Below are positions 30,575 through 45,694 of a DNA stretch of 49,845 bases, in pieces. The stretch is from Magnetococcales bacterium. GTDB lineage: Bacteria > Pseudomonadota > Magnetococcia > Magnetococcales > UBA8363. Position 1 is the stretch's first letter. Each line of letters starts with the position of its first letter. The notes under the pieces are model-generated. The model was given only the letters and a program-made list of their open reading frames with translations. It was not told the DNA's origin and ran no database searches. The stretch is from assembly GCA_015660855.1 (NCBI GenBank), contig JACSDG010000015.1, positions 1 to 49,845 on the forward strand. The letters run 5' to 3'. The position numbers and the translations under genes are program-made.

Positions 30575-31495
30575 ATGCAACCGACGATCATTTTTGCATC
30601 CAATCTGACCAAACGCTATGGGGAAAGGGTTGTGGTGGACGGCATCGACTTTGAGGTTCGCCAGGGGGAATGTTTTGGATTTTTAGGACCCAATGGGGCG
30701 GGCAAGAGTACCATTATGCGCATGATCATCGGTTTGACCCCGCGAGATGGGGGAAAGCTTTCGGTGTTGGGGCGCAATGTGGTCCCGGAGGATCCTGCCA
30801 TTGCGGCACAGTTGGGCATTGTCCCCCAGGAGAACAATTTGGACACCGACCTGGAGGTTGGCGAAAACCTGGAGGTTTATTGTCGCTATTTTGGGTTGAC
30901 GGCCAAGGTGCGGGAGGAAAGAATTGAGCAACTGTTGCAATTTGCCCAATTGAGCGACCGTCGCCACACCCCGGTGCATACACTTTCCGGCGGCATGATG
31001 CGGCGTCTGGTGATTGCCAGATCCCTGGTGGCGCAACCGAAAATGGTCATCCTGGACGAACCCACCACCGGACTGGATCCCCAGGCACGGCATCTGATCT
31101 GGCAGCGGTTGGCGAAGCTTAAGGAAAATGGCATCACCCTGCTTTTGACCACCCACTATATGGAAGAGGCGGCCCGTTTGTGTGACCGTCTGTTGATTCT
31201 TGATCAGGGTCGCATTCTTGACCAGGGGAGTCCGGAAACTCTCGTGCGTCGGCATGTGGAACCGGAGGTTTTGGAAGTTTGGGGGCGGGAAGGGGATCGG
31301 GGTTTGGCGGAGCTTGGAACCTTGGGGGGACGTTGGGAGCGGGTGGGTGATACCTTTTACGTTTACGGTTTTCAACTGGAATCGGTGCGGCAACGGGTGC
31401 TTGAGCGCGAAGGGTGTTCGTGTCTTCTGCGTCCGGCCAATCTTGAGGATGTGTTTTTGCGCTTGACGGGCCACGATCTGGGGGAGGGATCATGA
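30575..31495 (+). CDS. ABC-2 exporter ATP-binding protein (NodI/DrrA type)
   Basis: 306 residues from ATG 30575 (an ATG at 30518 would add 19 residues). Walker A GPNGAGKST, Q-loop VPQEN, signature LSGGM, Walker B VILDEPTTGLDP and switch His in LLTTHYMEE are all intact. The C-terminal part (about 225-300) is the accessory domain of NodI/DrrA-like ATPases. The gene overlaps the permease by four bases (ATGA), so the two form one exporter. The substrate is unknown; relatives export drugs, lipid-linked sugars or Nod factors. Confidence 0.93.
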   Translation: MQPTIIFASNLTKRYGERVVVDGIDFEVRQGECFGFLGPNGAGKSTIMRMIIGLTPRDGGKLSVLGRNVVPEDPAIAAQLGIVPQENNLDTDLEVGENLEVYCRYFGLTAKVREERIEQLLQFAQLSDRRHTPVHTLSGGMMRRLVIARSLVAQPKMVILDEPTTGLDPQARHLIWQRLAKLKENGITLLLTTHYMEEAARLCDRLLILDQGRILDQGSPETLVRRHVEPEVLEVWGREGDRGLAELGTLGGRWERVGDTFYVYGFQLESVRQRVLEREGCSCLLRPANLEDVFLRLTGHDLGEGS

Positions 31496-32271
31496 GGGTG
31501 ATTCGAGGGTTTATTCCTTCCAGGGGGTCTGTTCAGGTGTGGCGGCGACATTTTTTGGTTTGGAAAAAAAACGCCGTGGCCTCTCTGGCGGGAAGTTTGG
31601 GGGAACCCCTTTTGTATCTTTTGGGGTTGGGGTACGGTTTGGGTCGGTTTGTCGGGGCGATTGGCGACAAGAATTACATGGTCTATGTGGCCTCGGGCAT
31701 CTTGGCGGCCAACAGCATGAATTCCGCCACCTTTGAAGCCATTTATGGCGGTTTTACCCGCATGACGCGCCAGAACACCTTCCATGCCATGCTGGCTACC
31801 CCCCTGACCGTCGCCGATGTGGTGGCGGGAGAGATCGCCTGGGCTGCGACCCGCTCTTTGATTTCGGGGACCGCTATTTTTTTGGTCGGTTGGTCGTTGG
31901 GGGCTTTCTCCCTGGGGTCGGTGTTGGTGGCGTTGCCGGTGGTCGTCCTTGCGGGATTGGCTTTCGGGGCCATGGCGATGGTGGTGACCGCCATCTCTCC
32001 GAGCTATGATTTTTTTCTCTATTATTTCACCCTGGTGACGACGCCCATGTTTCTTTTTTGTGGGGTGTTTTATCCCGTGGCCTCTTTGCCGATTCTGGTC
32101 CAGGCTTTCGTTGCGGTGATGCCGCTGACCCATGTGGTGGCGTTGCTGCGTCCCGAGGCTTCCGGTTTTGTATTTGCGGAGGTTGGTGTGCATCTGGCGG
32201 TGATCGGTGTTTATGCCGTGGCCTCCTTCATCGCCGCTGTCGCTCTGGTACGTCGCAGGATCATCGTGTGA
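31492..32271 (+). CDS. ABC-2 type permease (NodJ-like)
   Basis: 259 residues with six hydrophobic segments starting near residue 35 (LAGSLGEPLLYLLGLGYGLG). It has the conserved MVYVASGILAANSMNSATFEAIYGGF and LATPLTVADVVAGEI found in the NodJ family, and a C-terminal VALVRRR. It is encoded with and translationally coupled to the ATPase, and presumably works as a dimer with it in the cytoplasmic membrane. Confidence 0.92.
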   Translation: MRVIRGFIPSRGSVQVWRRHFLVWKKNAVASLAGSLGEPLLYLLGLGYGLGRFVGAIGDKNYMVYVASGILAANSMNSATFEAIYGGFTRMTRQNTFHAMLATPLTVADVVAGEIAWAATRSLISGTAIFLVGWSLGAFSLGSVLVALPVVVLAGLAFGAMAMVVTAISPSYDFFLYYFTLVTTPMFLFCGVFYPVASLPILVQAFVAVMPLTHVVALLRPEASGFVFAEVGVHLAVIGVYAVASFIAAVALVRRRIIV

Positions 32272-32565: not shown

Positions 32566-32961
32566 ATGGCCGAATTGTTTTCCGCAGGATGGATGAATCG
32601 TTTTCATGAAGAGTGGAACAAGGAAAAAGAGCTTTCCGACGCCTTGGCAGAGATCGATTTCAACTCGACCATCGCTTACGGTTTTGAGGGCGACGACAAA
32701 CCTGTCGGGGTGATTGTGGTGCAAAAAGGCAAAGTTGTAAAAAGTGGTGCTTACAGCGGGGAACCTGTCAATTGGGATCTGCGCGCCAGCAAGGCCAACT
32801 GGGAAAAGTGGATCGCCAAGGGGATTGGCATGATGGGGTTGGGGATGGCTTATACCTCGCGCAAGCTTAAGTTTAACGTGGGTGATTATGGTGCGATGAT
32901 CAAGGATCCGCGTATGGCCGGGCCTTTCATCAAATCTTTTTCTGTGATGGGTCGCGTCTGA
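32566..32961 (+). CDS. SCP2 sterol-binding-domain-like protein
   Basis: 131 residues, no signal peptide. The run VGVIVVQKGKVVKSGAYSGE followed by WDLRASKANWEKWI and a later KLKFNVGDYGAMIKD fits the SCP2/UbiJ-type lipid-binding fold, in which a beta sheet binds an acyl chain. AAGGA lies six bases before the ATG, and a TATACT -10-like sequence lies about 20 bp upstream. Proteins of this class in bacteria often bind ubiquinone precursors or fatty acids. The assignment is by general pattern, so moderate. Confidence 0.6.
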   Translation: MAELFSAGWMNRFHEEWNKEKELSDALAEIDFNSTIAYGFEGDDKPVGVIVVQKGKVVKSGAYSGEPVNWDLRASKANWEKWIAKGIGMMGLGMAYTSRKLKFNVGDYGAMIKDPRMAGPFIKSFSVMGRV

Positions 32962-33040: not shown

Positions 33041-34261
33041 ATGAGGAAATTCATCACACTGGTGACTTTATTGTTGGCACTGGCGGTCTGGGTTGTGCGA
33101 CCGGACAGGCCGTGGGCGGCTGGTGACGGCCCCCCGGCCAATGCTCCAACCGGACGAGTTCCGGCTGGAAATCGGGTGATCACTGTGGAAGAAGCGGCCA
33201 TTGGGGCGACGACCACTCTGGGTGGGACGGTTGTACCGTACCGGGAGGTTTCATTTTCGGCGCAGATGCCGGGACGGGTGGAATACATTGCTGGCGTGGA
33301 GGGGGATTGGTTTAAAAAGGGGGTGGTTTTGGTAGCCCTGGACGAGGACGACCTATTGGCCAAGCACAAGTCGGCGCAGGCGGCCTTGGCGACGGCGAGT
33401 GCCAATTGGCGCAATGCACGGGTGCAGTATACCCGTCAGGTCTATTCGGGTTCGAGCATGGCCTCGGACAACATGGGGATGGACATGCCGCGCATGTTTG
33501 ACCGGGTGCTTACTCGGCCTATGTCCGACATGGTCGGGCTGGACAATCCCGAGCTGACCCGCAGGGCACAGATTTATGCCCAGGGAACCCAGATTGACCA
33601 GGCGCGTTATTCTCTGGCCCAGGCCCAGGCGGCACTTCAGGAACTGGAAGCCAAGTTGCGCGATACCCGTTCCATCGCGCCCTTTGCCGGGGTGATTGTC
33701 GCCAAACACATTGAGGTTGGCGATACGGTGCAGCCGGGGATGCCTCTCGTAAGTTTTGCCGATACCCGGCATCTTCAAATCAAGGTAGACGTTCCTGCCC
33801 GTCTCATGCCTGGCATCAAGAAGGGTATGTTGATTTCTGCGAGGCTTGATGTGGGCGGTGTCGAGGCGGAAGCCGAGGTGGCTCAGGTGTTTCCCATGGC
33901 CGATCCACAACGCCATACGGTGACCGTCAAGCTTGATTTGGCCAAGGGTTCGCCGGGGGGGCCGGGGATGTATGCCGAGGTGATGGTTCCCGACATTACC
34001 ACTCCTGTGCGCAACCTGCCGACCATTCCCAAGACCTCTGTGATTTGGCGAGGGTCTTTGCCGGCTGTTCTCGTTGCCACGGAGGGGAAGGAGCCGGAGT
34101 TGCGCATGATCAGGCTGGGTGGTTTTGTGGAGATGGATTCGGTTAGCGTGCTGTCGGGTCTCCAGGTCGGGGAAAAAATTTATGCCGAACCGCCTGCGGG
34201 CATGGTGGGTGGCTGGGATCCCCAGGGCAAGACGGAAGAAAAAACGGTGCCATCGTTTTGA
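33041..34261 (+). CDS. RND efflux periplasmic adaptor (HlyD/AcrA family)
   Basis: 406 residues from ATG 33041 (GAGGTGG seven bases upstream). N-terminal signal MRKFITLVTLLLALAVWVV with cleavage after AWA/AAG. Lipoyl-type halves (VVPYREVSFSAQMPGRVEYI and RSIAPFAGVIVAKHIEVGDTV) flank a helical hairpin (about 110-210); beta-barrel and membrane-proximal domains follow. It is placed just upstream of the RND pump, with about 400 bp of repeat DNA between. No TolC-type outer membrane gene is seen here. Confidence 0.9.
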   Translation: MRKFITLVTLLLALAVWVVRPDRPWAAGDGPPANAPTGRVPAGNRVITVEEAAIGATTTLGGTVVPYREVSFSAQMPGRVEYIAGVEGDWFKKGVVLVALDEDDLLAKHKSAQAALATASANWRNARVQYTRQVYSGSSMASDNMGMDMPRMFDRVLTRPMSDMVGLDNPELTRRAQIYAQGTQIDQARYSLAQAQAALQELEAKLRDTRSIAPFAGVIVAKHIEVGDTVQPGMPLVSFADTRHLQIKVDVPARLMPGIKKGMLISARLDVGGVEAEAEVAQVFPMADPQRHTVTVKLDLAKGSPGGPGMYAEVMVPDITTPVRNLPTIPKTSVIWRGSLPAVLVATEGKEPELRMIRLGGFVEMDSVSVLSGLQVGEKIYAEPPAGMVGGWDPQGKTEEKTVPSF

Positions 34262-34658
34262 GGTATCGGAAAATAAAGTTTGGCAAAAATTATTGCGGGG
34301 GTGGCCTAGGTTTTTGTTTCGGCCATGGGTTGCGCGTGGAGACAGGAAAACTATTAAAAAAAAAGAAGGGGTCTGGGGAATTCTTTCCCCAGGGTTTTGA
34401 CTTTAAACAAAAAAGCTTTCATGCCCCGTTTTTGACCTTTGCTTTTGACTTTGAACAAAAAGCTTGCTTTTGTGTTTAAACAAAAAGCTGCGTTGCAATG
34501 GGGGTTTGGGGGCGAGAGTACCCAAGGATTTATTTTTCGCCCGAAAGGCATAAAGTACCAAAAAATGAGCAGCAGCGATTTCTGGGCATCCATCCAATGT
34601 TTGGTCGGGGCGGTGGGGCCTACTCATACACCTTTAATTTCCGTTTGCGACAGGGACC
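34262..34658 (+). repeat. Composite, degraded copy of the G-rich repeat between RND adaptor and pump
   Basis: Starts right after the adaptor stop: TATCGGAAAATAAAGTTTGG, AATTATTGCGGGGGTGG, then diverges. A CTGGGGAATTCTTTCCCCAG hairpin (34372-34391) with GGTTTTGACTTT follows. Then come three copies of a (T)TTGA(C/A)TTT..AAACAAAAAGC stretch, and the usual right end (GGGGGCGAG..CCCAAGGATTT, CGCCCGAAAGGCATAAAG, ending about 34555). The rest is leader of the pump gene. Terminator-like structures inside a likely operon could reduce pump expression. Confidence 0.65.
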
Positions 34659-37600
34659 ATGACCAAAGCCTCCAAACCCAACGGTAGCACGCTGCCTCCA
34701 CCACCTGAAAAGATGGAGGGGCCTCACCATGACCTTGGCGTGGCCGGCAATATGGCCAAGGCCTTCATTCATTCTCCTCTTTCGCCTTTGTTTTTGTTTG
34801 CGTGTCTGGCCATGGGGATCATGGGTCTGTTGATGACCCCGCGACAGGAGGATCCGCAGATTTCGGTTCCCATGGTGGACATTTTTGTCCAATACCCTGG
34901 GGCTTCTTCGGAACAGGTTGCGACCCTGGTTACCGATCCCCTGGAACGGATCATGAGTGAAATCGCCGGGGTGAAGCATGTGTATTCTGCTTCCATGCGC
35001 GGGTCCGCCATGATCACGGTGGAATATGATGTGGGACAGGATCTGGAGGCCTCCCTGGTTAAACTCTACGACCGAATCCATTCCAATATGGATAAGGTTC
35101 CCCCTGGGGTGCAGCCTCCCCTGGTGAAGCCCAAGGCGGTGGATGATGTCCCCATTGTGACGTTGACGTTGTGGTCCGAGGATGTCAACGACAGTGCGTT
35201 GCGTGCCCTGACCCTGGATGTGTTGCAACAGATCAAGCAGGTTGAAAATACCAGTCAGGGGTTCATTGTTGGCGGTCGTGCCGAGCAGATCCGGGTGGAA
35301 ATTTTCCCCGAGCGGTTGTCGGGTTTTGGGTTGAGTCTGGATCAGATTGCCCAGACCATCAAGACGGCCAACAGCGAGCAGGGGATGGGTCACCTTGAGA
35401 GCGGAGACCAGGGTTTTACCCTTTATACCGGCTCTTTTCTCAAGAATGCCCAGGATGTCTCTCGCCTGATGGTGGGAACCCGGTTTAATTCGCCGGTCTA
35501 TGTTCGTGACGTGGCTCAGGTGTTTTCTGGACCGGAAGAGACCCGACAGGTGGTGACCTATACCACGGGTCCCGCCTACAAGGGGAATACGCCGCCAGCC
35601 AATGGGGTGCCGGCGGTTACGTTGGCCATTGCCAAGAAGAAAGGTTCCAACGGTGTGACGGTAGCCGATGGGGTGTTGACCAAGGTAGAGGAATTGAAGG
35701 GGCACCTCATCCCCAAGAATGTCCAGGTGTCGGTGACGCGCAACTATGGCGAGACGGCCAACGAAAAGGTTAACGAGCTGCTGTTCAAGCTGATGATCGC
35801 CACCATGGCGGTGACATTTTTGGTTTGGTATTCCCTGGGTTTCAAGCCGGCCATCGTGACTTTGGTGGTGATCCCTGTGGTGATTTTGATGACGGTGTTT
35901 GCCGCTTGGATCATGGGTTACACCATCGACCGTGTGTCGTTGTTTGCCTTGATTTTTTCCATTGGCATTTTGGTGGACGACGCCATTGTGGTGGTGGAAA
36001 ATATTTATCGACGCTGGTTATTGGAGGACAGGTGCTGTCACCTGATTTCCATCGATGCGGTACGGGAGGTGGGAAATCCCACGATTCTGGCCACGTTTAC
36101 CGTGATTGCCGCCCTTTTGCCCATGGGGTTTGTGCGTGGCATGATGGGGCCGTACATGTTGCCGATTCCGGCGTTGGGGTCGGTGGCCATGTTGTTTTCG
36201 CTGTTTGCCGCTTTTATTTTTACCCCGTGGCTGGCGCAACTTATCAAACCCAGCATGCGTTCGCTGCACATGCACTCGGAGAAAGAGCACCGGGGTGCTG
36301 AGCGGTTGGAGCGGTTTTATCGTTGGATTATTCCGGGCCTTTTGGATAGCCGGGTCAAGGGATTTGCCTTTTTGGGTCTTTTGGTGGCGGGATTTTTTGG
36401 GTCGATGCTTTTGTTTTACACCACCGATGTGACGGTGAAAATTCTCCCCCTGGACAACAAACCGGAATTCAACGTTGTCATCAACATGCCCGAGGGGACG
36501 GCGTTACCCAGGACGGTCAATGTGGCCAATCGCATGACCGAAATGCTCAAGGAAAAGATTCCGGAAGTTACCGCCTTGCAGACGTATGTTGGTACGGCAT
36601 CGCCGTTTAACTTTAACGGCATGGTGCGGCATTATTACATGCGGCGTAATTCCTGGGAGGCGGATATCCAGGTGCAACTGTTGCACAAAAAGCAGCGCGA
36701 GCGTACCAGCCATGATTTGGCGATTGCGGCCCGGGAGCTTTTGACTCCCTATGCCAAGCAGATGGGGGCGCGGGTCCAGGTGGTTGAGATGCCTCCGGGA
36801 CCGCCGGTGTTGCAGTCGGTGGTGGCGGAGGTGACGGGTCCGACGGCTACGGTTCGGCGGGAGGTGGCCGAGCATATGACACGGTTGTTCGAGAAGTCCG
36901 AGAGTATTGTGGATGTGGACAATTATATCCAGCAGCCTTTTGAATATTGGCGTTTCGAGGTGGATACCGAAAAGGCGGTGCGTCGGGGCATATCGGTGGA
37001 CGCCATCAACCGTAATCTGGCCATGGCCATGGGGGGGGCGCAGCTGGGGGATGTCAAGGGAGGGAGTATTTTGGAACCGACCTACATTGTCATCCAGGTG
37101 CCGTTGGAAATTCGCTCCAAGGTGTCGAGCATGAGCGATCTGCCCATTTCCACCCCGGAGGGGTCGGCGGTTCCGTTGGGGGAACTGGGTCGGTTCGTCA
37201 AGGATTTCCAGGATCATATCATTTACCACAAGGATTTGCGCCCGGTGGAGTTTGTCACTGGGGAGGTGACGGGACGTTTGGATGCACCGATCTACGGCAT
37301 GTCGGAGGTGCAGAAAATGCTGGACTCCTATACGACGCCTGATGGTGTGATCATGTCGGGGAATTATCTTGGGCCGCCGACGAGTTATGGTCAGTCCGGT
37401 TTTGAATGGACGGGTGAGTGGACTGTGACCTATGAAACGTTTCGCGACATGGGCATGGCTTTTGGAGCGGCGTTGATATTGATCTACATGTTGGTGGTCT
37501 GGGAGTTTGGCAATTTTATCCTGCCGGCCATTATCATGGCCCCCATTCCGTTGACATTGTTGGGGATCATTCCTGGCCATTGGTTGTTGAATGCCAAGTT

Positions 37601-38462
37601 TACCGCGACTTCGATGATTGGTTTTATCGCCCTGGCGGGGATCATTGTTCGCAACTCCATTTTGTTGGTGGACTTTGCCCAGCAGGAAATTCTTAGAGGG
37701 GTATCGGTACGCGATGCGGTCATATTGTCGTGCAAGGCGAGAACCCGTCCGATTTTGATCACAGCTTTTGCCCTTGTGGCGGGGTCCAGTGTGATTCTCG
37801 GCGACTTTATTTTTCAGGGGATGGCCATATCGCTGCTGTTTGGTGCCTTGGTTTCCACTCTTTTGACGTTGCTGGTGATTCCTTTGGGTTGCGTGACGGC
37901 GCAGGGTGGTTTCAAGCGTCCTGAGCCGGAAAGTTCTTCCGGATTGGGTGGTTTTGGTGCCAGCAGTCCTGCGTGTGATCCCGACTTGCCGGCTCCGGTG
38001 GAACTGGGTGGTGCGGACAGTGATTCCTATACCGCAGCCAAAAACGAGTTGCGCCGGGTGGTGGCCAGCAAGGATGTGTCGAGTGACGATATAGGTGGGG
38101 GGAAGGGGAGGTCGTCGAATCGTAGATCCCGGTCTGCCGCGCCGGTTTCGGTGAAGTCTGTGCCTGCCGAGGCTGTGGTTGAGGAAGCGGTCGTCCAGGT
38201 ACCCCAGGAGGTGGAGCCGGTGGTAGAGGTTTCGGTTCCGATGCCGGAGGCCAGGGATAGTGGAGCTTGGGTGGGTGAAGAACCTAGCGTGGAAAGTGTG
38301 GAAGTCAAGAATCAGGAAGGGAGTGACGATGCGCATGCTTCGCGGCAGTCGCAGGGGCGTGTCAAGGGGCAGGGGGCTTCTTCTGGCAATGCGGCGGGTG
38401 GTCGGCGCGGCATTCGCTTGAAGACAAAGGGCCAAGGTGAAGGGGCTGGCGAGGAATCGTGA
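34659..38462 (+). CDS. RND-family efflux pump with a long cytoplasmic C-terminal tail
   Basis: 1267 residues. The pump core (about 1-1080) shows the RND plan: a first helix near 45-60, the VDIFVQYPGASSEQVATLVTDPLE porter segment, and proton-relay Asp440-Asp441 in GILVDDAIVVVEN. In the second half, IIVRNSILLVDF carries Arg998 where AcrB has Lys940, as in other RND subfamilies. The last about 185 residues are an extra tail rich in Glu, Val, Ser and Gly, with basic patches (SSNRRSRS, GGRRGIRLKTKG), absent from standard pumps of about 1040 residues. Its stop overlaps the next gene's start by four bases. The substrate is unknown. Confidence 0.9.
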   Translation: MTKASKPNGSTLPPPPEKMEGPHHDLGVAGNMAKAFIHSPLSPLFLFACLAMGIMGLLMTPRQEDPQISVPMVDIFVQYPGASSEQVATLVTDPLERIMSEIAGVKHVYSASMRGSAMITVEYDVGQDLEASLVKLYDRIHSNMDKVPPGVQPPLVKPKAVDDVPIVTLTLWSEDVNDSALRALTLDVLQQIKQVENTSQGFIVGGRAEQIRVEIFPERLSGFGLSLDQIAQTIKTANSEQGMGHLESGDQGFTLYTGSFLKNAQDVSRLMVGTRFNSPVYVRDVAQVFSGPEETRQVVTYTTGPAYKGNTPPANGVPAVTLAIAKKKGSNGVTVADGVLTKVEELKGHLIPKNVQVSVTRNYGETANEKVNELLFKLMIATMAVTFLVWYSLGFKPAIVTLVVIPVVILMTVFAAWIMGYTIDRVSLFALIFSIGILVDDAIVVVENIYRRWLLEDRCCHLISIDAVREVGNPTILATFTVIAALLPMGFVRGMMGPYMLPIPALGSVAMLFSLFAAFIFTPWLAQLIKPSMRSLHMHSEKEHRGAERLERFYRWIIPGLLDSRVKGFAFLGLLVAGFFGSMLLFYTTDVTVKILPLDNKPEFNVVINMPEGTALPRTVNVANRMTEMLKEKIPEVTALQTYVGTASPFNFNGMVRHYYMRRNSWEADIQVQLLHKKQRERTSHDLAIAARELLTPYAKQMGARVQVVEMPPGPPVLQSVVAEVTGPTATVRREVAEHMTRLFEKSESIVDVDNYIQQPFEYWRFEVDTEKAVRRGISVDAINRNLAMAMGGAQLGDVKGGSILEPTYIVIQVPLEIRSKVSSMSDLPISTPEGSAVPLGELGRFVKDFQDHIIYHKDLRPVEFVTGEVTGRLDAPIYGMSEVQKMLDSYTTPDGVIMSGNYLGPPTSYGQSGFEWTGEWTVTYETFRDMGMAFGAALILIYMLVVWEFGNFILPAIIMAPIPLTLLGIIPGHWLLNAKFTATSMIGFIALAGIIVRNSILLVDFAQQEILRGVSVRDAVILSCKARTRPILITAFALVAGSSVILGDFIFQGMAISLLFGALVSTLLTLLVIPLGCVTAQGGFKRPEPESSSGLGGFGASSPACDPDLPAPVELGGADSDSYTAAKNELRRVVASKDVSSDDIGGGKGRSSNRRSRSAAPVSVKSVPAEAVVEEAVVQVPQEVEPVVEVSVPMPEARDSGAWVGEEPSVESVEVKNQEGSDDAHASRQSQGRVKGQGASSGNAAGGRRGIRLKTKGQGEGAGEES

Positions 38463-39607
38463 TGCACCATCGAGGCTACGGGAAAAGGTTGTTTTCCTTG
38501 TTGGGAGCTTTAAGTCTGCTGCCGGTGCTGGCTGTGGCGGAGGACAGTCCGGGCGAGGGGCCGCGCAAGGGTTTGGTTGCGAGCGGTCGGGAGGTGGCCT
38601 CGGGTGAAAGTGTTCCCCCTTCGGGGTTTGTGCGCATGGGGGAGAAGGGCAGGGAGTCTGGCGACCGCAGTTGGAGGGGAAATCCGGGTGGTCGTGGGGA
38701 TGCCGTGGAGAATTCTGGTGCTGCGGCGACTGGCTGGAAGGAGTCGACCACGGGGTTGCCACCGCCGATGGCGGTTCCGGAGCGGGGATGGGGTGGTGGT
38801 TCTCGGGATGCGAGTCGTTATTGGGATCCGCCGCCGGGATTCAGGGGTGAAGCCGGGGGCGAAGGGGAGGGGGCGGTGGGGCCCGATCCCGAGGGGGAGG
38901 GCGTTGATCGCCTGCCTGGGCGTCGGTTTGGGGATGGAGGAGGTTTGGGAGGCGGGGCTGGTTTGCGGGAGGAAGCGGCTGGGGGTGGTTCTCAGGGGAC
39001 TTTGGCTTCGGACAGGTATCATGATTCGGAGACCCTTGATCCTCGGCGGGAGATCGACCCGTATTTTCTCCGAAAACAGCGGCGCGACGGTTATGCGGGT
39101 TCAGGACGGTCCTGGTCTGGTGACGCCGGTCGGGGGTACGGCGGGGAGGATGGTTATCGCGGGCGTCCGGGGATTGATTCGCGTTATGATGATTCGGCGG
39201 ATCGGGGTTGGCGTTATCGGGATGGCGGGATTGATGCGGAGGGGCGGGGCTATCGTGGTCAAGGGTTTTCCGAGGATGATCGTTCTTATCCGGATCGTCG
39301 TGGGGAGGGTAGTGGACCTTATCGGGGACGGGGTGAGGAAGGCTATTGGGGGCGGGGGGATCCCAGGGAGGAGGGGAATGGTGGGGGTGGGTCATTTTCG
39401 TGGAACAGTCGTTATGATTGGGGGAATCGGGGTGGCCGGGGATGGGGGATGCCTGTGCCTGGGTGGAATTCTTCCTCCAGCGATTGGATGAGGCCGTGGG
39501 ATGGATGGCGGAATGGTGACGGGGGTTATGGGTCTGGGTATGATTCGTATCTCAGGCCGGATGATTTTAATTTGAACGAAGGAAGTGGCCGTGGCCCGTG
39601 GCGATGA
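38459..39607 (+). CDS. Exported Gly/Arg/Asp-rich low-complexity protein
   Basis: 382 residues, translationally coupled to the RND pump. A basic N-terminus and hydrophobic core (LFSLLGALSLLPVLAVAEDS) form a likely Sec signal cleaved after AVA. The mature chain is disordered and dominated by Gly, Arg, Asp, Tyr and Trp, with RG/YRGRG-type motifs from about 215 (GYRGRPG, RGYRGQGF, PYRGRGEEGYWGRGD). It closes with an aromatic segment (WMRPWDGWRNGDGGYGSGYDSY). I do not recognise a family. The coding frame is supported by the coupled start, signal peptide and lack of stops, but G-rich DNA also keeps other frames open. Confidence 0.68.
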   Translation: MMHHRGYGKRLFSLLGALSLLPVLAVAEDSPGEGPRKGLVASGREVASGESVPPSGFVRMGEKGRESGDRSWRGNPGGRGDAVENSGAAATGWKESTTGLPPPMAVPERGWGGGSRDASRYWDPPPGFRGEAGGEGEGAVGPDPEGEGVDRLPGRRFGDGGGLGGGAGLREEAAGGGSQGTLASDRYHDSETLDPRREIDPYFLRKQRRDGYAGSGRSWSGDAGRGYGGEDGYRGRPGIDSRYDDSADRGWRYRDGGIDAEGRGYRGQGFSEDDRSYPDRRGEGSGPYRGRGEEGYWGRGDPREEGNGGGGSFSWNSRYDWGNRGGRGWGMPVPGWNSSSSDWMRPWDGWRNGDGGYGSGYDSYLRPDDFNLNEGSGRGPWR

Positions 39608-39695
39608 GCTTTTTCTGGGCACCTGTGGGCATTTCAGGGACCGGGAGGTTTGGGAGGGGTGGTGTTGGGTTCAGGGTGTGGTGGGTTGGTGTTTC

Positions 39696-40142
39696 ATGTC
39701 GTCGATTTTGTGGGCAGTGTTGTGGGCGGTATTGTTTTTTGCGTTTGCCGGTGATGGGCAGGCGGGTGATTTGCCTTGGGGGAGCCAGTATTATCGTGTG
39801 AGGCCTGAGGGGTTGAAGGGGTCTGCCGTGCCGGATGTGCCATCGCAGGGGCAGGGTGCTGCGGTTCGACCATGGGGTGAGGTTCCCCTGGAGTGGCGTG
39901 AGGGAGGGGCGGATCGGCGGGTGCCGTCGCGCGGTGTTGGTGAGGATCGGCGGTTGGTTCCGGGGTGGGGATATGGTGGCCGCTGGGATGAGAGGGTTTC
40001 TCCGGGTTGGTTGTCGCCGCGTGGCGATGGCCCGGGTGCCTTTGGTGGTGCGGATGGGTTTGGGTGGGGATATGGGGATCCATGGCGGGGGGAGTGGGAG
40101 ATGGAAGCCCAGCCGTTTTATCCTGGGCCGTTTGGTTGGTGA
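39696..40142 (+). CDS. Small exported Trp/Gly/Arg-rich protein
   Basis: 148 residues from ATG 39696; an in-frame GTG at 39585 would overlap the previous gene. The signal-like start (MSSILWAVLWAVLFFAFAGDGQAG) is followed by a mature part with PWGSQYYRVRPEG, PWGEVPLEWREGG and repeated WGYG/GWGYGDPW, ending FYPGPFGW. No family recognised. The composition matches the preceding and following genes, so they look like paralogous or co-functional low-complexity proteins. A repeat copy follows immediately after the stop. Confidence 0.6.
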   Translation: MSSILWAVLWAVLFFAFAGDGQAGDLPWGSQYYRVRPEGLKGSAVPDVPSQGQGAAVRPWGEVPLEWREGGADRRVPSRGVGEDRRLVPGWGYGGRWDERVSPGWLSPRGDGPGAFGGADGFGWGYGDPWRGEWEMEAQPFYPGPFGW

Positions 40143-40285
40143 GTGGTAACTATTGAGTCCCTCCCTTTTTATTTTTGGGCTGAAACTGTTGCGGGAGACC
40201 GGGGGGATCATTCTCCCCGGCTTGGGTTTGGGGCAGTGCCCCAAGGTTTTGGTTTTTGCTCGAAGGGCATAATGTCCACCGTTCC
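40143..40285 (+). repeat. G-rich hairpin repeat copy with GGTAACC-type left end
   Basis: Starts at the stop codon of the preceding gene: GGTAACTATTGAGTCCCTCC, GCTGAAACTGTTGCGGGAGA, CCGGGGGGATCATTCTCCCCGG hairpin, a diverged TTTGGGGC-AGT-GCCCCAAGG hairpin with GGTTTTGG, and the end GCTCGAAGGGCATAATGTCC. The arms have changed on both sides (GGAGGC to GGGGC with matching CCCC), so pairing is kept while sequence drifts. Confidence 0.8.
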
Positions 40286-40300
40286 CTCAGGCGTTTTTTC

Positions 40301-40978
40301 ATGAAATTTTTTCGTGTTTTTTTCAGTTCTGGCTTGGTGCACCGGATGGTATTCGTGTGTTTTTTGGTTTTGTCGTGTCAGGTTTGGGTGGGGAGGGCGA
40401 AGGCTGAGGAAAAGGTCAAGGTGGAAGGGTTGGTGCAGGAGTTTTCCGCCGATGTGGTGCGCAAGGATGCCAAGGGGGGGCAAGGGGTGAGTCGCGGGAA
40501 GATGTATGTCGGTCGGCACGGAGTTCGGACAGAAGGGGAGCGGATGGGGCAGCCGGTCTGGATGATTTTCCGACCGCAGGAAAAACGGGTATGGACATTG
40601 TTTCCGCAGGAAAAAGGGTATACACAGACCGAGGGGAAGGATATTGGGCGGCCCCCCATGCCGGATGAACCGGAGAGTCCGTGTCGTAAGGATAAGCAGT
40701 TTATTTGTCGCGACATGGGACCGCAGGTCATGGCAGGACGTGAAACGCGGGTGTGGGATATTGCCATGAATTTACCCCAGGGGGGTGTGCAGGCTTATGC
40801 GCGGATGTGGGTGGATGTATCGCTCAAAATAGCGATACGTGAGTTGTACGCCGACGGACTGGAGGTCACCTTGGAGAATGTGCGTCAGGAAGTGCAATCT
40901 GCGACATTGTTTGAGGTTCCGGAGGGGTTTCGGCAGATCAGTACCCCAGTGGCGGGGGAGGGGGTGGAAAAAAGGTGA
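40301..40978 (+). CDS. Periplasmic DUF4412-like protein
   Basis: 225 residues from ATG 40301. The signal peptide covers about 1-35 (MVFVCFLVLSCQVWVGRAKA, cleaved before EEK). The mature part follows the DUF4412/LolA-like beta plan: EFSADVV, SRGKMYVGRHGVRTEG, MIFRPQEKRVWTLFPQEKGYT, then a two-Cys loop (CRKDKQFIC), ARMWVDVSLKIAIREL and SATLFEVPEGFRQIS at the end. Such proteins are thought to bind lipids or hydrophobic ligands in the periplasm, by analogy with LolA. It lies within the run of low-complexity exported genes. Confidence 0.7.
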   Translation: MKFFRVFFSSGLVHRMVFVCFLVLSCQVWVGRAKAEEKVKVEGLVQEFSADVVRKDAKGGQGVSRGKMYVGRHGVRTEGERMGQPVWMIFRPQEKRVWTLFPQEKGYTQTEGKDIGRPPMPDEPESPCRKDKQFICRDMGPQVMAGRETRVWDIAMNLPQGGVQAYARMWVDVSLKIAIRELYADGLEVTLENVRQEVQSATLFEVPEGFRQISTPVAGEGVEKR

Positions 40979-41248
40979 GAGGAGGTTGATTTTTTTCTTG
41001 CGTGGGGCTGTGCTTGTCTGTATATTAGAAATTAATAATATTCTGAATAATAACGATTTCCAGATTTCTGTCCTGGTTTTTGAATGGGATCGTGAACATA
41101 ATATGCCAGAGTGGGGGGCGTTGGATGCAACATGGGGATGGGGAAAATTCCCCGCCGGGCGACATGGTCAATGGTTTGCTGACACGGTTGGTATCCTTGG
41201 GGGTTTTTGCTCTGGCTGATTTTGAGGATCTTTCGGGAGCTTCAGGAT
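40979..41248. other. Spacer before the Trp/Tyr-rich gene
   Basis: 270 bp with an AT-rich patch (41023-41060, GTATATTAGAAATTAATAAT onward) that could hold a promoter, and a possible out-of-frame signal peptide from 41164. No repeat copy seen. Confidence 0.4.
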
Positions 41249-41800
41249 ATGGGGGAGCGGTTTGGCAAGTTCATGGGTTCGTTTGTACAGGAGATGGGGC
41301 AGACTGCGGCGAATCGGGACAAGGGGGGGGGGACTAGTGCAGGGGGAGAAGGGTTGGAGTGGAATCGAAGGGGATCTGGGCGGGGCGAGTGGGGATCCAA
41401 CTTCCGGGGTGAGGAAAGGAATGCGCCGTGGGATAGGGGGCGGGGGCGGAGTTATCGCGGGGCCGTTCCCATGTACGATCCGTGGGGTGCCAATCAATGG
41501 GGGTATTGGAATTCACCACTGATGGAATATGATCCCTGGATGTCTTCGTCGGCTCGGGCCGACAGGGATTGGGAGGCATGGCGGGGTTATTATGGTGCTG
41601 GGGCAGTAGCACCTTGGGAGCATGAAGCTCCGTGGCCGCCGGGAGGCGATCGGTTTGGTCCTTACGACGGCCATGGTCCCGGCTCCTATGGGGGGTGGTA
41701 TGGGAATGGACTTGGCAATGGTGGCTATGGACCGTCTTATGGGTTGGGGGAACGTTCCTGGGGCGAAGGGGGTTATTATCCGGGGACCAGGACTTGGTAG
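41249..41800 (+). CDS. Trp/Tyr/Gly-rich low-complexity protein, possibly with a displaced signal peptide
   Basis: 183 residues from ATG 41249; a TTG at 41207 would add 14. The mature-like part holds MYDPWGANQWGYWNSP, EYDPWMS, a WEAWRGYYGAGA segment and a Gly/Tyr-rich end (GGWYGNGLGNGGYGPSYG). No signal peptide is in this frame. In the +1-related frame just upstream, ATG 41164 starts a signal-like stretch (NGLLTRLVSLGVFALAD), so a frameshift or sequence error may have split the gene. It shares the YDPWG and PWE style with the genes at 38459 and 39696. Function unknown. Confidence 0.5.
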   Translation: MGERFGKFMGSFVQEMGQTAANRDKGGGTSAGGEGLEWNRRGSGRGEWGSNFRGEERNAPWDRGRGRSYRGAVPMYDPWGANQWGYWNSPLMEYDPWMSSSARADRDWEAWRGYYGAGAVAPWEHEAPWPPGGDRFGPYDGHGPGSYGGWYGNGLGNGGYGPSYGLGERSWGEGGYYPGTRTW

Positions 41801-41930
41801 CATGTCCCATCGGGGGTTTTCCTTAGGGTTTCTGCGATTGTTTGGAATGATGGAGCGTTTGCAATGGGTTGAGTGCGTGGGGGCGAGATTTTCACATGTG
41901 GGGTTGCGTGTGAGGCCTTTCCTTTCATTC

Positions 41931-42079
41931 TAAACCGCAACCATCTTGGGATACGTAGTTTTCAAACGTCATCCCCGCGAAAGCGGGGATCCAGGGCGTT
42001 GATTGGTAGCTTCGAGTTCTGGATCCCCGCTTTCGCGGGGATGACGGAAACTACACATCCCAAGCCGGGAGCGGTTTAA
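41931..42079. repeat. MITE-like long inverted repeat with GTCATCCCCGCGAAAGCGGGGATCC cores
   Basis: Two facing 26-bp cores (41969-41994 and 42021-42046) lie inside inverted flanks: TAAACCGC-6N-CTTGGGATACGTAGTTT on the left (41931-41963) matches TAAACCGC-6N-CTTGGGATGTGTAGTTT on the other strand at the right (42047-42079). The whole 149 bp can fold back on itself. The core is shared with the element at 15119-15238, but the flanks are different. Confidence 0.8.
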
Positions 42080-42196
42080 CATTTTCTTTCCGGCTTTCAT
42101 TGTAATCCATAGAAACATCCCATGTTGAGACCCCTGTGGCGTCTTGGCGGGTCTTGGACGAGGCTTTTTTTCTGTTAGGGCGAGGAGTTTACAGTC

Positions 42197-42583
42197 ATGA
42201 AGAAAAAAGTGCAGGTGATGGTTTTTGCGGCTCTGGTGGGTGCTATTGGCACTCTGGTTCCTGGGGAGTCTGTGGCATGGTGGGGTCCGGGATGGGGCGA
42301 TGGGCCGGGTTGGAATAACGGAGGCAACAATTGGGGCAACAATTGGAACAATGATGGGAGAGGGCGGGGGTCTGGCCGGTTGAATTTTACTGTTGATGCC
42401 GATTTTGAAGGGTTTACCCGTAACGGCTGGGATAATATGTGGAACAACGGCTGGAATAATGGCTATGGTGGACCGGGAGGTTGGGGTGGACCGGGAGGAT
42501 GGGGTGGACCGGGAGGATGGGGTGGACCGGGAGGATGGGGTGGACCGGGAGGTTGGGGTAGGCCGGGAGGTTGGGGATGGTAG
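42197..42583 (+). CDS. Sulfur-globule-protein-like exported Gly/Trp/Asn-rich protein, copy 1
   Basis: 128 residues. A Sec signal (MKKKVQVMVFAALVGAIGTLVPGESVA) is cleaved before WWGPGWG. The mature chain has WNNGGNNWGNNWNN, a short beta-like segment SGRLNFTVDADFEGF, WNNGWNNGY and six GGPGGW-type repeats to the end. The AWWG start, the single non-repetitive F/S segment and the Gly-aromatic tail resemble the sulfur globule protein family, small coat proteins of periplasmic sulfur inclusions. GAGGAG precedes the ATG by ten bases. The paralogue follows 62 bp downstream. The family call is by composition and layout. Confidence 0.65.
   Translation: MKKKVQVMVFAALVGAIGTLVPGESVAWWGPGWGDGPGWNNGGNNWGNNWNNDGRGRGSGRLNFTVDADFEGFTRNGWDNMWNNGWNNGYGGPGGWGGPGGWGGPGGWGGPGGWGGPGGWGRPGGWGW
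42466..42580 (+). repeat. 18-bp tandem repeat coding GGPGGW
   Basis: About six units of GGTGGACCGGGAGG(A/T)TGG inside the first sulfur-globule-like gene. The last unit has one change (GGTAGGCCG, giving Arg). Near identity at the DNA level points to recent slippage expansion, so copy number may vary between strains. Confidence 0.85.
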
Positions 42584-42645
42584 GCTGATAGCGGGAAAAG
42601 TTTCCTGAGATTTTGTTATTTTTATCAACCATGGAGAGAGGAACT

Positions 42646-43107
42646 ATGAAGAAGACATTGACCACGTTGGCAGTGGCGGCCCTTTTGGGTGGCGTCGCGA
42701 TGATGAATGCCGATGAAGCTCAGGCTTGGTGGGGTAACGGGCCGGGGTATAATAACGGCAACTGGGGCAACAACTGGAATAATAATGGTAGTGGCAATGG
42801 TAATGGTAATGGCCGTGCCTCCGGTAGCTTTGGTTTCAACATGAGTGGCGATGGTAGTGGTGGCGGCTCGGGTAACAACGGTTGGAACAATGGTTGGAAC
42901 AATGGTTGGAACAACGGCTATGGTTATGGTCCGTACGGTGGTGGGTATCCGGGCTGGGGTGGATATCCGGGTGGCTGGGGTGGGTATCCCGGGTGGGGTG
43001 GTGGACCGGGTGGTTGGGGTGGTGCGCCTGGTTGGGGTGCTCCTCCCGCTGCGGCACCGCAGGCGGGCGAAGGGGAAGCAGCTCCCCAACAACGTCAAGG
43101 CCAGTAG
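42646..43107 (+). CDS. Sulfur-globule-protein-like exported Gly/Trp/Asn-rich protein, copy 2
   Basis: 153 residues from ATG 42646 (AGGA five bases upstream). The signal MKKTLTTLAVAALLGGVAMM is cleaved near DEAQA before WWGNG. The mature chain has YNNGNWGNNWNNN, ASGSFGFNMSGDG (the S/F/N/M segment typical of the family), four NNGW units, and a Pro-Gly-Trp-Tyr-rich part (GGYPGWGG). It ends in a Gln/Pro/Ala-rich tail without aromatics (PPAAAPQAGEGEAAPQQRQGQ, shown here in part of its length). It forms a tandem pair with the gene before and is followed by a strong terminator. Confidence 0.68.
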   Translation: MKKTLTTLAVAALLGGVAMMNADEAQAWWGNGPGYNNGNWGNNWNNNGSGNGNGNGRASGSFGFNMSGDGSGGGSGNNGWNNGWNNGWNNGYGYGPYGGGYPGWGGYPGGWGGYPGWGGGPGGWGGAPGWGAPPAAAPQAGEGEAAPQQRQGQ

Positions 43108-43128
43108 GTTTATTGTTCATTGGTTTGT

Positions 43129-43156
43129 GGCGGCCCTTCGGGGCCGCCTTTTTTTT
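43129..43156 (+). terminator. Rho-independent terminator closing the low-complexity gene cluster
   Basis: GGCGGCCC-TTCG-GGGCCGCC with a UUCG tetraloop, then eight T. It lies 22 bp after the second sulfur-globule-like gene. The cleanest terminator in the window, unlike the repeat-borne hairpins. Confidence 0.95.
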
Positions 43157-43436: not shown

Positions 43437-45149
43437 ATGCAGTGGATCAAAGACATGAAAATCAGTTCCAAGCTTATTTTGGCTTTTTTGATTGTTTCCA
43501 TCCTGATGGTTGGGGTGGGGGGGGTTGGGATTGTCAATATGGGGGAGTTGGACGCTGCCGATACCCAGTTGTATGAAATGGAGTTGCTGGGGGTGAGCTA
43601 CATCAAGGATGTCAATATTGGTCTGGTCAATATTCTTCGAGCGGAAAGAAACTATCTGTTGTCCAGTTCCAAAGATCAAAGGGACAAATACGAGAAACAG
43701 ATTGGAGAGAGGTTTGTCGATCTACAAAAAGACTGGGATATTGCAAAAACCAAGTTTTATACCGAGAAAGGCAAAGATTTGATTGCCAGGATGGAGACCG
43801 GTTTTGCCGAATGGAAAAAATTGCATGGAGAAATCATAGTCCTGGCCGGAGCTGAGGAGTTACCAAAATCCCGGCCATCGATTGATTTGAGTTTTGGCAA
43901 GGCCAGGGAAAAGTTTGGTGAAATGGAAAAAGTAATGAAAGAATTGGGAGAACTGAAAGAGAGTCGGGCGAAAATTGCCTCGGACAGTAATACGGCCTTG
44001 TACGAACATAGTCGCATGATAATGATCAGTTTGATCGTGGTTGCCGTTGTGCTGGGGATGTTGATGGGGTATGGGATTTCCCGTTCCATTACCGTTCCGC
44101 TGAATGAGGGGGTGCGTTTGGCTCAGGCGTTGGCGGCGGGTGATTTGACCCAGTCGGTCAAGGTGGATCGCCGGGATGAGGTGGGGGTTTTGGGTGAGGC
44201 CATGAACGGCATGGCGGACAAATTGCGGCAGGTTATTGGTGATGTAGCTTCGGCCTCCAGCCAGGTTTCCGTGGGTAGCAACCAGATTTCCGACTCGGCG
44301 CAGGGGTTGTCGCAGGGGGCTACCGAACAGGCGGCCTCGGTGGAGGAGACCTCATCGGCCATGGAGGAGATGTCATCGAACATTTCGCAGAATACCGACA
44401 ATGCGACGACCACGCAGACCATAGCGCAAAAGGCGGCCAAGGACGCCGAGGAGGGTGGCATTGCGGTGGGCGAGGCGGTGCAGGCGATGAAAGAAATTGC
44501 GTCCAAGATTGGCATTATCGAAGAGATTGCCCGACAGACCAACCTGTTGGCCTTGAATGCCGCCATTGAAGCGGCGCGGGCTGGAGAGCATGGAAAGGGG
44601 TTTGCGGTGGTGGCTGCCGAAGTCAGGAAGTTGGCCGAGCGCAGCCAGACCGCCGCCGGGGAGATCAGTCAACTTTCCGCTTCCAGTGTTGGTGTGGCGG
44701 AAAAAGCGGGTGGAATTATCAACAGGCTGGTCCCTGATATTCAGAAGACGGCGGAGCTTATTCAGGAGATCGCCGCCTCCAGTCAGGAGCAGAATCAGGG
44801 GGCAACCCAGATCAATCAGGCGATTCAACAGCTTGATCAGGTGATCCAACAAAATGCGGGTGCTTCCGAAGAGATGGCGGCTACGGCGGAGGAATTGAGT
44901 TCGCAAGCGGATATGATGAGCCAGGCCGTTGCCTTCTTCAATCTGGGCCAGCAGGGCAAAGGGGCTGGCCGGGTGGCATCGATGAAAAAGGCAAGCCATC
45001 CCAAGACGCAAATTGCCCACATCAAAAAGCCTGGCAAGGCCATAGCCCATGCCGGGAAAAAATCGGGTGGTGCGGAGCATAAATCGGAGGGTGTTGACCT
45101 GAAGATTGGTCATGATACCCCAAAAGATGACGAATTCGAGGCCTTTTGA
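43437..45149 (+). CDS. Methyl-accepting chemotaxis protein with a four-helix-bundle sensor
   Basis: 570 residues from ATG 43437 (AGGAG eight bases upstream). TM1 at about 9-31 ([21 protein letters not shown]), a periplasmic four-helix bundle of about 155 residues ([20 protein letters not shown] recalls the 4HB_MCP family), TM2 near 197-217, HAMP, then the signalling hairpin ([20 protein letters not shown]). The C-terminal DDEFEAF again fits an aromatic-x-x-aromatic CheR tether and matches the first receptor's DEEFESF. cheW follows after 17 bp, so receptor and coupling protein are co-expressed. Confidence 0.94.
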
Positions 45150-45166
45150 TCTCAAGGAGATGATTC

Positions 45167-45694
45167 ATGAGCGTTCCAGGAATTACAGTACCGACCCAGT
45201 TTTTGACGTTTCATTTGGGCAAGGAGGTGTTTGCCATCGACATTTCCAAGATCAAGGAGGTGTTGGAGTTTACTTCTCTGACCAAGATTCCCAGGACCCC
45301 TGAGTTTATGTGCGGGGTGATCAATTTGCGTGGCAGTGTGGTGCCGGTGGTGGATTTGCGGTTAAAGTTTGGCATGCCCAAGAGTGAGCGGACAGTCAAT
45401 ACTTGTATCATCATCATCGATGTGATTCAGGGGGATGTTGCGACGGTGATTGGTGCTATGGCCGACTCGGTCAAGGAGGTGATGGAGTTGGATCCGGGCC
45501 AGATTGAGCCACCCCCAAAAATTGGCACGGGGATGCGCACCGATTTTATGCGTGGCATGGGCAAGCAGAGCGATCATTTTGTCATTCTGCTGGATACCGA
45601 CAAGGTGTTTTCGTCCAGTGAGCTGTCGATGTTGCAAGATGCCGGTGCCCATGGTGGTGGGAAGGGGTTGGCGGAGAACGACAAGGCGGCGTGA
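45167..45694 (+). CDS. cheW: Chemotaxis coupling protein CheW
   Basis: Links chemoreceptors to the kinase CheA. 175 residues: QFLTFHLGKEVFAIDISKIKEVLE, the GVINLRGSVVPVVDLRLKFG core and VIGAMADSVKEVM. The C-terminal LDTDKVFSSSEL segment is followed by a short Gly/Ala-rich tail. AAGGAG lies seven bases upstream. No cheA, cheY, cheR or cheB is in the window, so the core chemotaxis genes are elsewhere. Confidence 0.94.
   Translation: MSVPGITVPTQFLTFHLGKEVFAIDISKIKEVLEFTSLTKIPRTPEFMCGVINLRGSVVPVVDLRLKFGMPKSERTVNTCIIIIDVIQGDVATVIGAMADSVKEVMELDPGQIEPPPKIGTGMRTDFMRGMGKQSDHFVILLDTDKVFSSSELSMLQDAGAHGGGKGLAENDKAA

Follow-up and report, generated by a model that had tools for sequence, protein, structure and literature searches.

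A conserved RND pump locus of sulfur-oxidising bacteria, found in a Magnetococcales genome, that may serve the making of sulfur globules

A cluster of genes was analysed in a 49,845-nucleotide stretch of DNA from a Magnetococcales bacterium (GenBank assembly GCA_015660855.1, contig JACSDG010000015.1, positions 1 to 49,845 of the forward strand), which is referred to here as the window (contig C116 of a 4.5 Mb genome that is 98% complete). The cluster joins an RND periplasmic adaptor and an RND pump with a predicted carrier (SCP2L), a DUF4412-like periplasmic protein, three exported low-complexity proteins (X, Y and Z) and two sulfur-globule-like proteins (SGP1 and SGP2, together SGPs). Sulfur globules are periplasmic stores of zero-valent sulfur. 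It is reasonably probable, in our view, that sulfur oxidisers of the rDsr type share a conserved locus, represented in the window by this cluster, which serves the making of such globules by a proton-driven relay for hydrophobic cargo. The set is probably an undescribed machinery that fills and coats sulfur granules. A sequence-only reading of this DNA had suggested a possible role for the cluster in building, filling or coating a periplasmic inclusion or a surface layer. The inclusion is the best reading because the pump clade tracks dsrA and the SGPs match Allochromatium proteins beyond composition, although not all carriers of the pump have adjacent SGPs.

The earlier identification of the adaptor and the pump agrees with their domain matches (Table 1). 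The pump shows the features of an HAE1 RND pump, namely the ACR_tran domain, an adaptor gene, the Asp-Asp pair in transmembrane helix (TM) 4 and the Lys/Arg of the proton relay in TM10, and the relay residues D440, D441, R998 and T1035 are kept. In a tree of 123 pumps, the window-type pumps form a clade that is split from generic pumps with a support of 0.999 and in which the Magnetococcales pumps are monophyletic. Twenty positions are diagnostic for this clade, and generic RND pumps are only about 35-44% identical to the window-type pump. The adaptor is 56-85% identical to the genes found upstream of the pump elsewhere in the order. Genome contigs were scanned with an alignment of the order's pumps, and the best 80 loci returned include relatives from outside the order, with 51-66% identity, in Thiomargarita, Parabeggiatoa, Thiothrix, Thiofilum, Leucothrix, Sedimenticola, Thiodiazotropha, Allochromatium, Chromatium okenii, Thiocapsa, Thiococcus, Rhabdochromatium, Halochromatium, Thiomicrorhabdus, Hydrogenovibrio, Sulfurivirga, Marinosulfonomonas, acidophiles, and the thiotrophic symbionts of Bathymodiolus mussels and vesicomyid clams. 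These named carriers are sulfur oxidisers by metabolism, and one further record, labelled 'Phycisphaera', is probably misassigned. Several members of the clade (L151, L152, L166-L169, L171 and L173) have no close adaptor match and no partner genes, and some genomes carry two pumps of the clade, for example Halochromatium glycolicum (L130/L166).

The distribution of the pump was compared with that of dsrA in 299 Pseudomonadota genomes drawn evenly. Outside the order, a pump of the clade was found in only two of them (G212 and G254). Both have dsrA, compared with none of 40 pump-less genomes (42 tested, Fisher p ~0.001), and in both the pump, SGP-like, DUF4412, ParA and dynamin-like genes stand in one row. 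SCP2L was found in 29 genomes of the order and in one of about 268 others, which is the pump carrier G254. The dynamin-like GTPase occurs in members of the order, in G212 and G254, and in two further genomes that are discussed below. Within the order, most members have dsrA, and many magnetotactic cocci of the Magnetococcales contain sulfur globules (PMC6783814). The tracking of dsrA by the pump clade, together with the match of the SGPs to Sgp-like proteins of Allochromatium, makes the link of the cluster to sulfur a strong one. Separately, one member of the order has a generic RND pump about 5 kb from dsrA (G044:C359).

For the conservation of gene order, the locus was taken from about 35 further Magnetococcales genomes of 13 families, and 31 loci were used for the linkage count. 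In each of these 31, SCP2L precedes the adaptor on the same strand, and the conserved cluster begins with this gene, earlier than the sequence-only reading had placed it. The DUF4412 protein follows on the same strand, 1-3.6 kb behind the conserved part of the pump, again in all 31 loci. Usually, one or two exported low-complexity proteins are encoded between the two, and in most families Z and two or three SGPs follow the DUF4412 protein. Given 5.5 kb of downstream sequence, SGPs were found downstream in 19 of 25 loci from other families and in 4/4 from the window's own genus, and the SGP1 family is present in most members of the order. A ParA-type ATPase and a transmembrane/coiled-coil protein are encoded next in most families. 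In family f9, the SGPs and ParA are located about 8 kb upstream on the opposite strand (G024). Comparing gene order in related genomes had been suggested as a check on whether the RND and low-complexity genes stay together, and they do so across the order and partly in sulfur oxidisers of two other classes. Some lineages, namely f9, the Chromatiales and the vesicomyid symbionts, keep pump and adaptor without adjacent SGPs. Within the operon itself, SGPs are therefore dispensable.

Outside the order, neighbours were counted in the 47 loci whose sequence extends 5.5 kb or more past the pump. ParA was found in 33, the transmembrane/coiled-coil protein in 34, the DUF4412 protein in 14, SGP-like proteins in 12 and SCP2L in 9 of these, and a dynamin-like GTPase in 31 (17 on the same strand; in the Chromatiales just upstream on the other strand). 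The ParA-type proteins L105 and L215 show a deviant Walker A motif, KGGxGKST, and a ParA/MinD domain. As controls, the surroundings of 13 generic RND pumps, most of which belong to that order, gave 0 matches for each of ParA, DUF4412, SGP, dynamin and SCP2L. The hidden Markov model (HMM) of the transmembrane/coiled-coil protein, a presumptive tether, matched 6 of these 13 loci and is thus unspecific, so that the counts for this protein are weaker evidence. Since pump similarity guided the choice of loci, which are moreover mutually related, the neighbour counts are not independent events.

These counts bear on the possibility of an ordinary drug or metal efflux pump, acting under sulfide or metal-sulfide stress, with the low-complexity genes as neighbours by chance or through shared regulation. 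Reduced symbionts that keep adaptor and pump only would fit this, as would the up-regulation of RND genes under H2S oxidation in Azospira, for which the authors suggest a stress role (PMC5358917); deletion of the RND-SQR operon of Azospira left the rate of sulfide oxidation unchanged (PMC5358917). However, an efflux pump of this kind is very improbable given the multi-gene linkage over three classes compared with its absence from the generic neighbourhoods, the separate clade with its diagnostic positions, and the occurrence of SCP2L essentially only with the window-type pump. That the pump itself is a generic RND pump was ruled out by the tree and the control neighbourhoods. With HAE1 efflux pumps, of which 6vej is the nearest solved structure by sequence, it shares the family, the pairing with an adaptor and the proton-relay residues. 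It differs from them in its clade, its low-complexity C-terminal tail, its other conserved partners and a locus in which no outer-membrane factor gene was recognised. No TolC-like outer-membrane channel was recognised among the conserved neighbours, a search that did not extend to the rest of the genome. Since no such gene was recognised in the locus, delivery into the periplasm would be favoured over export out of the cell.

The exported proteins provide the second tie to sulfur. SGP1, SGP2 and their relatives have a Sec signal peptide, as judged by a heuristic, and a mature part rich in Gly and aromatic residues. An HMM of the order's SGPs finds proteins in 11 of 16 genomes of sulfur oxidisers. 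The HMM of SGP1 and SGP2 matches an Sgp-like protein of Allochromatium humboldtianum (L250, MKKLATAAAVAALLGASASASAWWGPGWGG...FNMSMSGG...) with 55.5 bits, compared with at most 24.0 bits for 200 shuffles of the mature part. Mature-part shuffling ruled out pure composition as the source of the likeness for L250, L256 and L257, and it was uninformative for L251 and L258 because wrong frames had been taken. NCBIfam matches of SGP2 to rodlin and to a RiPP precursor family were weak, far under the cut-off, and were rejected. Like SGP2, the Allochromatium protein has an MKK...AWWG start, an FNMS-type motif and an Ala/Pro-rich end. SgpA, SgpB and SgpC of A. vinosum are likewise small, Sec-exported proteins rich in Gly and aromatic residues, whereas their genes are scattered singly (PMC10386293) and those of the window stand behind an RND pump together with carrier proteins. 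A parallel in gene arrangement is A. vinosum SgpD, which is proven on globules and whose gene (Alvin_2515) adjoins a hydrophobe/amphiphile exporter (PMC10386293). The Allochromatium copy of the window-type locus (L129, in A. humboldtianum) differs from the sgpD locus in lying near fccAB, which is found about 6 kb upstream of its RND genes. Expression data for the genes beside fccAB in A. vinosum were not found in the open-access literature. Two genomes of the window's genus have an additional SGP gene close to a second, distant ParA-like ATPase (L216, 5674-9926, contig C129 of the window genome; L221, 7615-9646, contig C13 of G007), and a TusA-like sulfur carrier, assigned by eye, is found near the former.

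Exported proteins of this composition would also suit a Gly/aromatic-rich surface or outer-envelope layer or a sheath, in which case the pump would export an associated hydrophobic compound and sulfur oxidation would be a shared lifestyle. The export signals given by the heuristic, a composition that suits many structural proteins, and the carriers without known internal globules are compatible with such a layer. Nevertheless, it is improbable, since the likeness of the SGPs to Sgp-like proteins of purple bacteria survives shuffling of the mature part, fccAB is near the locus in Allochromatium, the co-distribution with dsrA is exact in the even sample, and neither an outer-membrane channel nor a surface-anchor gene was recognised in the locus.

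The low-complexity open reading frames are real genes under purifying selection. Compared with relatives of the same genus, the ratio of nonsynonymous to synonymous substitution rates (dN/dS) is 0.10 for SGP1 and for SGP2, 0.17 for the DUF4412 protein, 0.09 for the pump, 0.30 for X, 0.36 for Y and, from the relatives only, 0.19 for Z, with a somewhat low bias because the repetitive proteins were first aligned as protein. Chance or spurious frames in the low-complexity region were ruled out by synteny and dN/dS. As ab initio gene calls gave antisense frames there, calls based on signal peptides and HMMs were used instead. In most relatives, an exported low-complexity gene, with a signal peptide by heuristic, stands at the place of X, and an HMM of Y from relatives matches 25 loci at the same place. 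The gene that had been placed at 41249 has the conserved body of Z (ELQDMGERFGKFMGSF...), but this sits in a different frame from the signal peptide MVNGLLTRLVSLGVFALA, which starts from 41164. The same-genus relatives L059-L062 and L064 have one intact frame, and the break in the window could stem either from an error in sequencing or from a genuine mutation.

Structure predictions add two putative carriers of hydrophobic ligands to the transport genes. Across classes, SCP2L shares 49-93% identity with its positional counterparts, and it has no Pfam match. Its AlphaFold model (pLDDT 95) is predicted to adopt the SCP2 fold, with SCP2 proteins (2cx7, TM-score 0.79; 1wfr) and UbiJ-SCP2 as top matches in the PDB. 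The window's DUF4412-like protein has no Pfam match either, and the label given to it earlier is carried by its orthologues L122 (39.1 bits) and L129 (24.6 bits), which exceed the PF14371 cut-off of 21.6. For the AlphaFold model of this protein (pLDDT 86, from 19 homologues), the top Foldseek matches in the PDB are LolA (E 1.2e-7), ependymin-related proteins, RseB and LprG. These suggest a LolA-type fold, with putative binding of lipoproteins or lipids. By these predicted folds, the RND pump would be paired with a cytoplasmic and a periplasmic protein for hydrophobic ligands. The two proteins thus resemble LolA/LolB, RseB, LprG and SCP2-type carriers, from which they differ in having no Lol pathway context, in the missing Pfam match of SCP2L and in substrates that are only putative.

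Since the SCP2 and LolA folds are those of classical lipid and lipoprotein carriers, the pump and carriers might move lipid instead of sulfur, for a globule membrane or for the upkeep of the outer membrane under sulfur stress, and the SGPs would still coat sulfur. Membrane remodelling by the dynamin-like GTPase that is often in the set would fit this. However, none of the conserved neighbours was recognised as a gene of lipid synthesis. The link with dsrA points to sulfur chemistry, although lipid for a sulfur compartment would be linked in the same way. Transport of lipid is considered rather unlikely.

For globule making as the preferred function, we infer cargo and mechanism from which genes are present and conserved, from their joint distribution with rDsr, and from the predicted folds and heuristic export signals. 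In the cytoplasm, SCP2L would bind a hydrophobic molecule and present it at the inner membrane. The cargo would then be lifted from the membrane or its periplasmic leaflet by the RND pump and its adaptor, with protons as the driving force through the conserved relay residues. Zero-valent sulfur (S8) or an organic polysulfane would be the preferred cargo, with lipid for the globule compartment as the main competitor. The DUF4412 protein, with its predicted LolA fold, could ferry the cargo through the periplasm, where SGP1, SGP2 and probably X, Y and Z, which carry export signals and in the case of the SGPs resemble Sgp proteins, would coat or nucleate the globule. The linked ParA-type ATPase and transmembrane/coiled-coil protein, often with the dynamin-like GTPase, might position the globule compartment and determine the form of its membrane. 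In its widest form, the proposal is put forward tentatively: rDsr oxidisers of at least three classes (Magnetococcia, Gammaproteobacteria and Alphaproteobacteria) may possess a dedicated globule-making system, in which the pump and the SCP2-fold and LolA-fold carriers load zero-valent sulfur, a Gly-rich coat encloses it, and ParA, a membrane tether and the dynamin-like GTPase place and shape a globule that would be a machine-built, organelle-like inclusion.

Several observations weigh against this proposal. All functional assignments draw on linkage, predicted folds and distribution, and the TM-scores of the DUF4412 model to the LolA fold are modest, at 0.42-0.53 and mostly about 0.4-0.5. In the window's genus, the ParA and transmembrane protein genes are found elsewhere in the genome and unlinked (G000:C68, L215). 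In the Chromatiales, the Sgp-like genes are elsewhere in the genome and not at the RND locus. A. vinosum SgpD is described as a coiled-coil protein and its gene as its own transcription unit, and the adjoining exporter is not shown to belong to the window's pump clade. The dynamin-like GTPase is also present in the pump-less genomes G123 (C1:648786) and G235 (C1:3687979), both outside the set tested for dsrA. Co-transcription in the window genome is not certain because of repeats in three intergenic gaps. The vesicomyid symbionts (L161 and L165, with genomes of about 1 Mb) keep the adaptor and pump but no partners, and this points to transport as the central step. We know of no intracellular globules in Thiomicrorhabdus and Sulfurivirga. 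Because of these carriers and the partner-less symbionts, the main role may lie in general sulfur handling.

All genes of the sequence-only reading were found at their places on the + strand, and the strong terminator at the end of the cluster is present (Table 1). The four-base overlap described between the pump and X applies only with the GTG start at 38459, whereas ATG 38462, which is favoured by the pattern in relatives, gives a one-base TGATG overlap. Just upstream of the cluster, genes for an ABC-2 type ATPase and permease are located at 30575-32271, as in several same-genus relatives (L059, L062). The region behind the terminator (43437-45694) codes for a methyl-accepting chemotaxis protein and, as judged by eye, a CheW-like one, at the place where other families carry ParA and the transmembrane protein.

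Table 1. Features of the cluster and their positions in the window
Feature	Position	Strand	Remarks
SCP2L, 131 aa, predicted sterol-carrier-protein-2 fold, no signal peptide	32566..32961	+	first gene of the conserved cluster
RND periplasmic adaptor (membrane fusion protein)	33041..34261	+	HlyD_D23 3e-16, RND_mfp 6e-42
Gap with two dispersed repeats (~34263-34302, ~34303-34465)	34262..34658	+	~50 more copies across the genome
HAE1-type RND pump, long low-complexity C-terminal tail (residues ~1090-1267)	34659..38462	+	ACR_tran E 7e-149
X, exported Gly/Arg-rich low-complexity protein	38462..39607	+	ATG 38462 preferred, GTG 38459 possible; heuristic signal peptide
Y, exported Gly/Trp/Arg protein; mature part starts near W-G-S-x-Y-Y-R-x-R-P	39696..40142	+	HMM from relatives
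Gap with dispersed repeat	40143..40300	+	
DUF4412-like periplasmic protein, predicted LolA/RseB-type fold, two conserved Cys	40301..40978	+	
Z, exported protein, motifs FG[RK]F-x-x-SF and YDPWG	41164..41800	+	frame-broken here, break near 41215-41245
Gap with inverted dispersed repeat (~41963-42045)	41801..42196	+	
SGP1, sulfur-globule-like, signal peptide; mature part starts near AWWGPGWG, ends PGGWGW	42197..42583	+	
SGP2, sulfur-globule-like, MKKTLTTLAVAALLGGV...AWWGNGPG...FGFNMSGD..., Ala/Pro-rich end	42646..43107	+	
Intrinsic terminator behind SGP2	43129..43155 (hairpin 43129-43148)	+	8 G-C pairs, then T8

To our knowledge, the movement of sulfur into coated periplasmic globules and the placement of the globules have no explanation, and only coat proteins are known. 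In the open-access literature, no paper was found that ties sulfur globules to RND genes together with ParA, dynamin or DUF4412, and none describes the gene set, in line with the earlier remark that no described system has it. The set would be new as a system, and each of its parts belongs to or resembles a known family. For ParA-type ATPases, the available part of a study of Halothiobacillus neapolitanus reports the positioning of several protein-based cargos (PMC10241942). Common to that ParA/MinD positioning and the locus described here are a ParA-type ATPase beside a membrane or coiled-coil protein and a presumed protein-coated cargo. They differ in that sulfur globules are not among the cargos in that part of the study (PMC10241942) and in that the partner here is a transmembrane protein known from gene linkage. 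If the proposal is true, an inorganic inclusion would join the known cargos of ParA-type positioning. The pump clade provides an RND marker for the sulfur-oxidising way of life, and the locus provides a few candidate genes that can be studied in organisms already in culture and partly tractable, such as Allochromatium.

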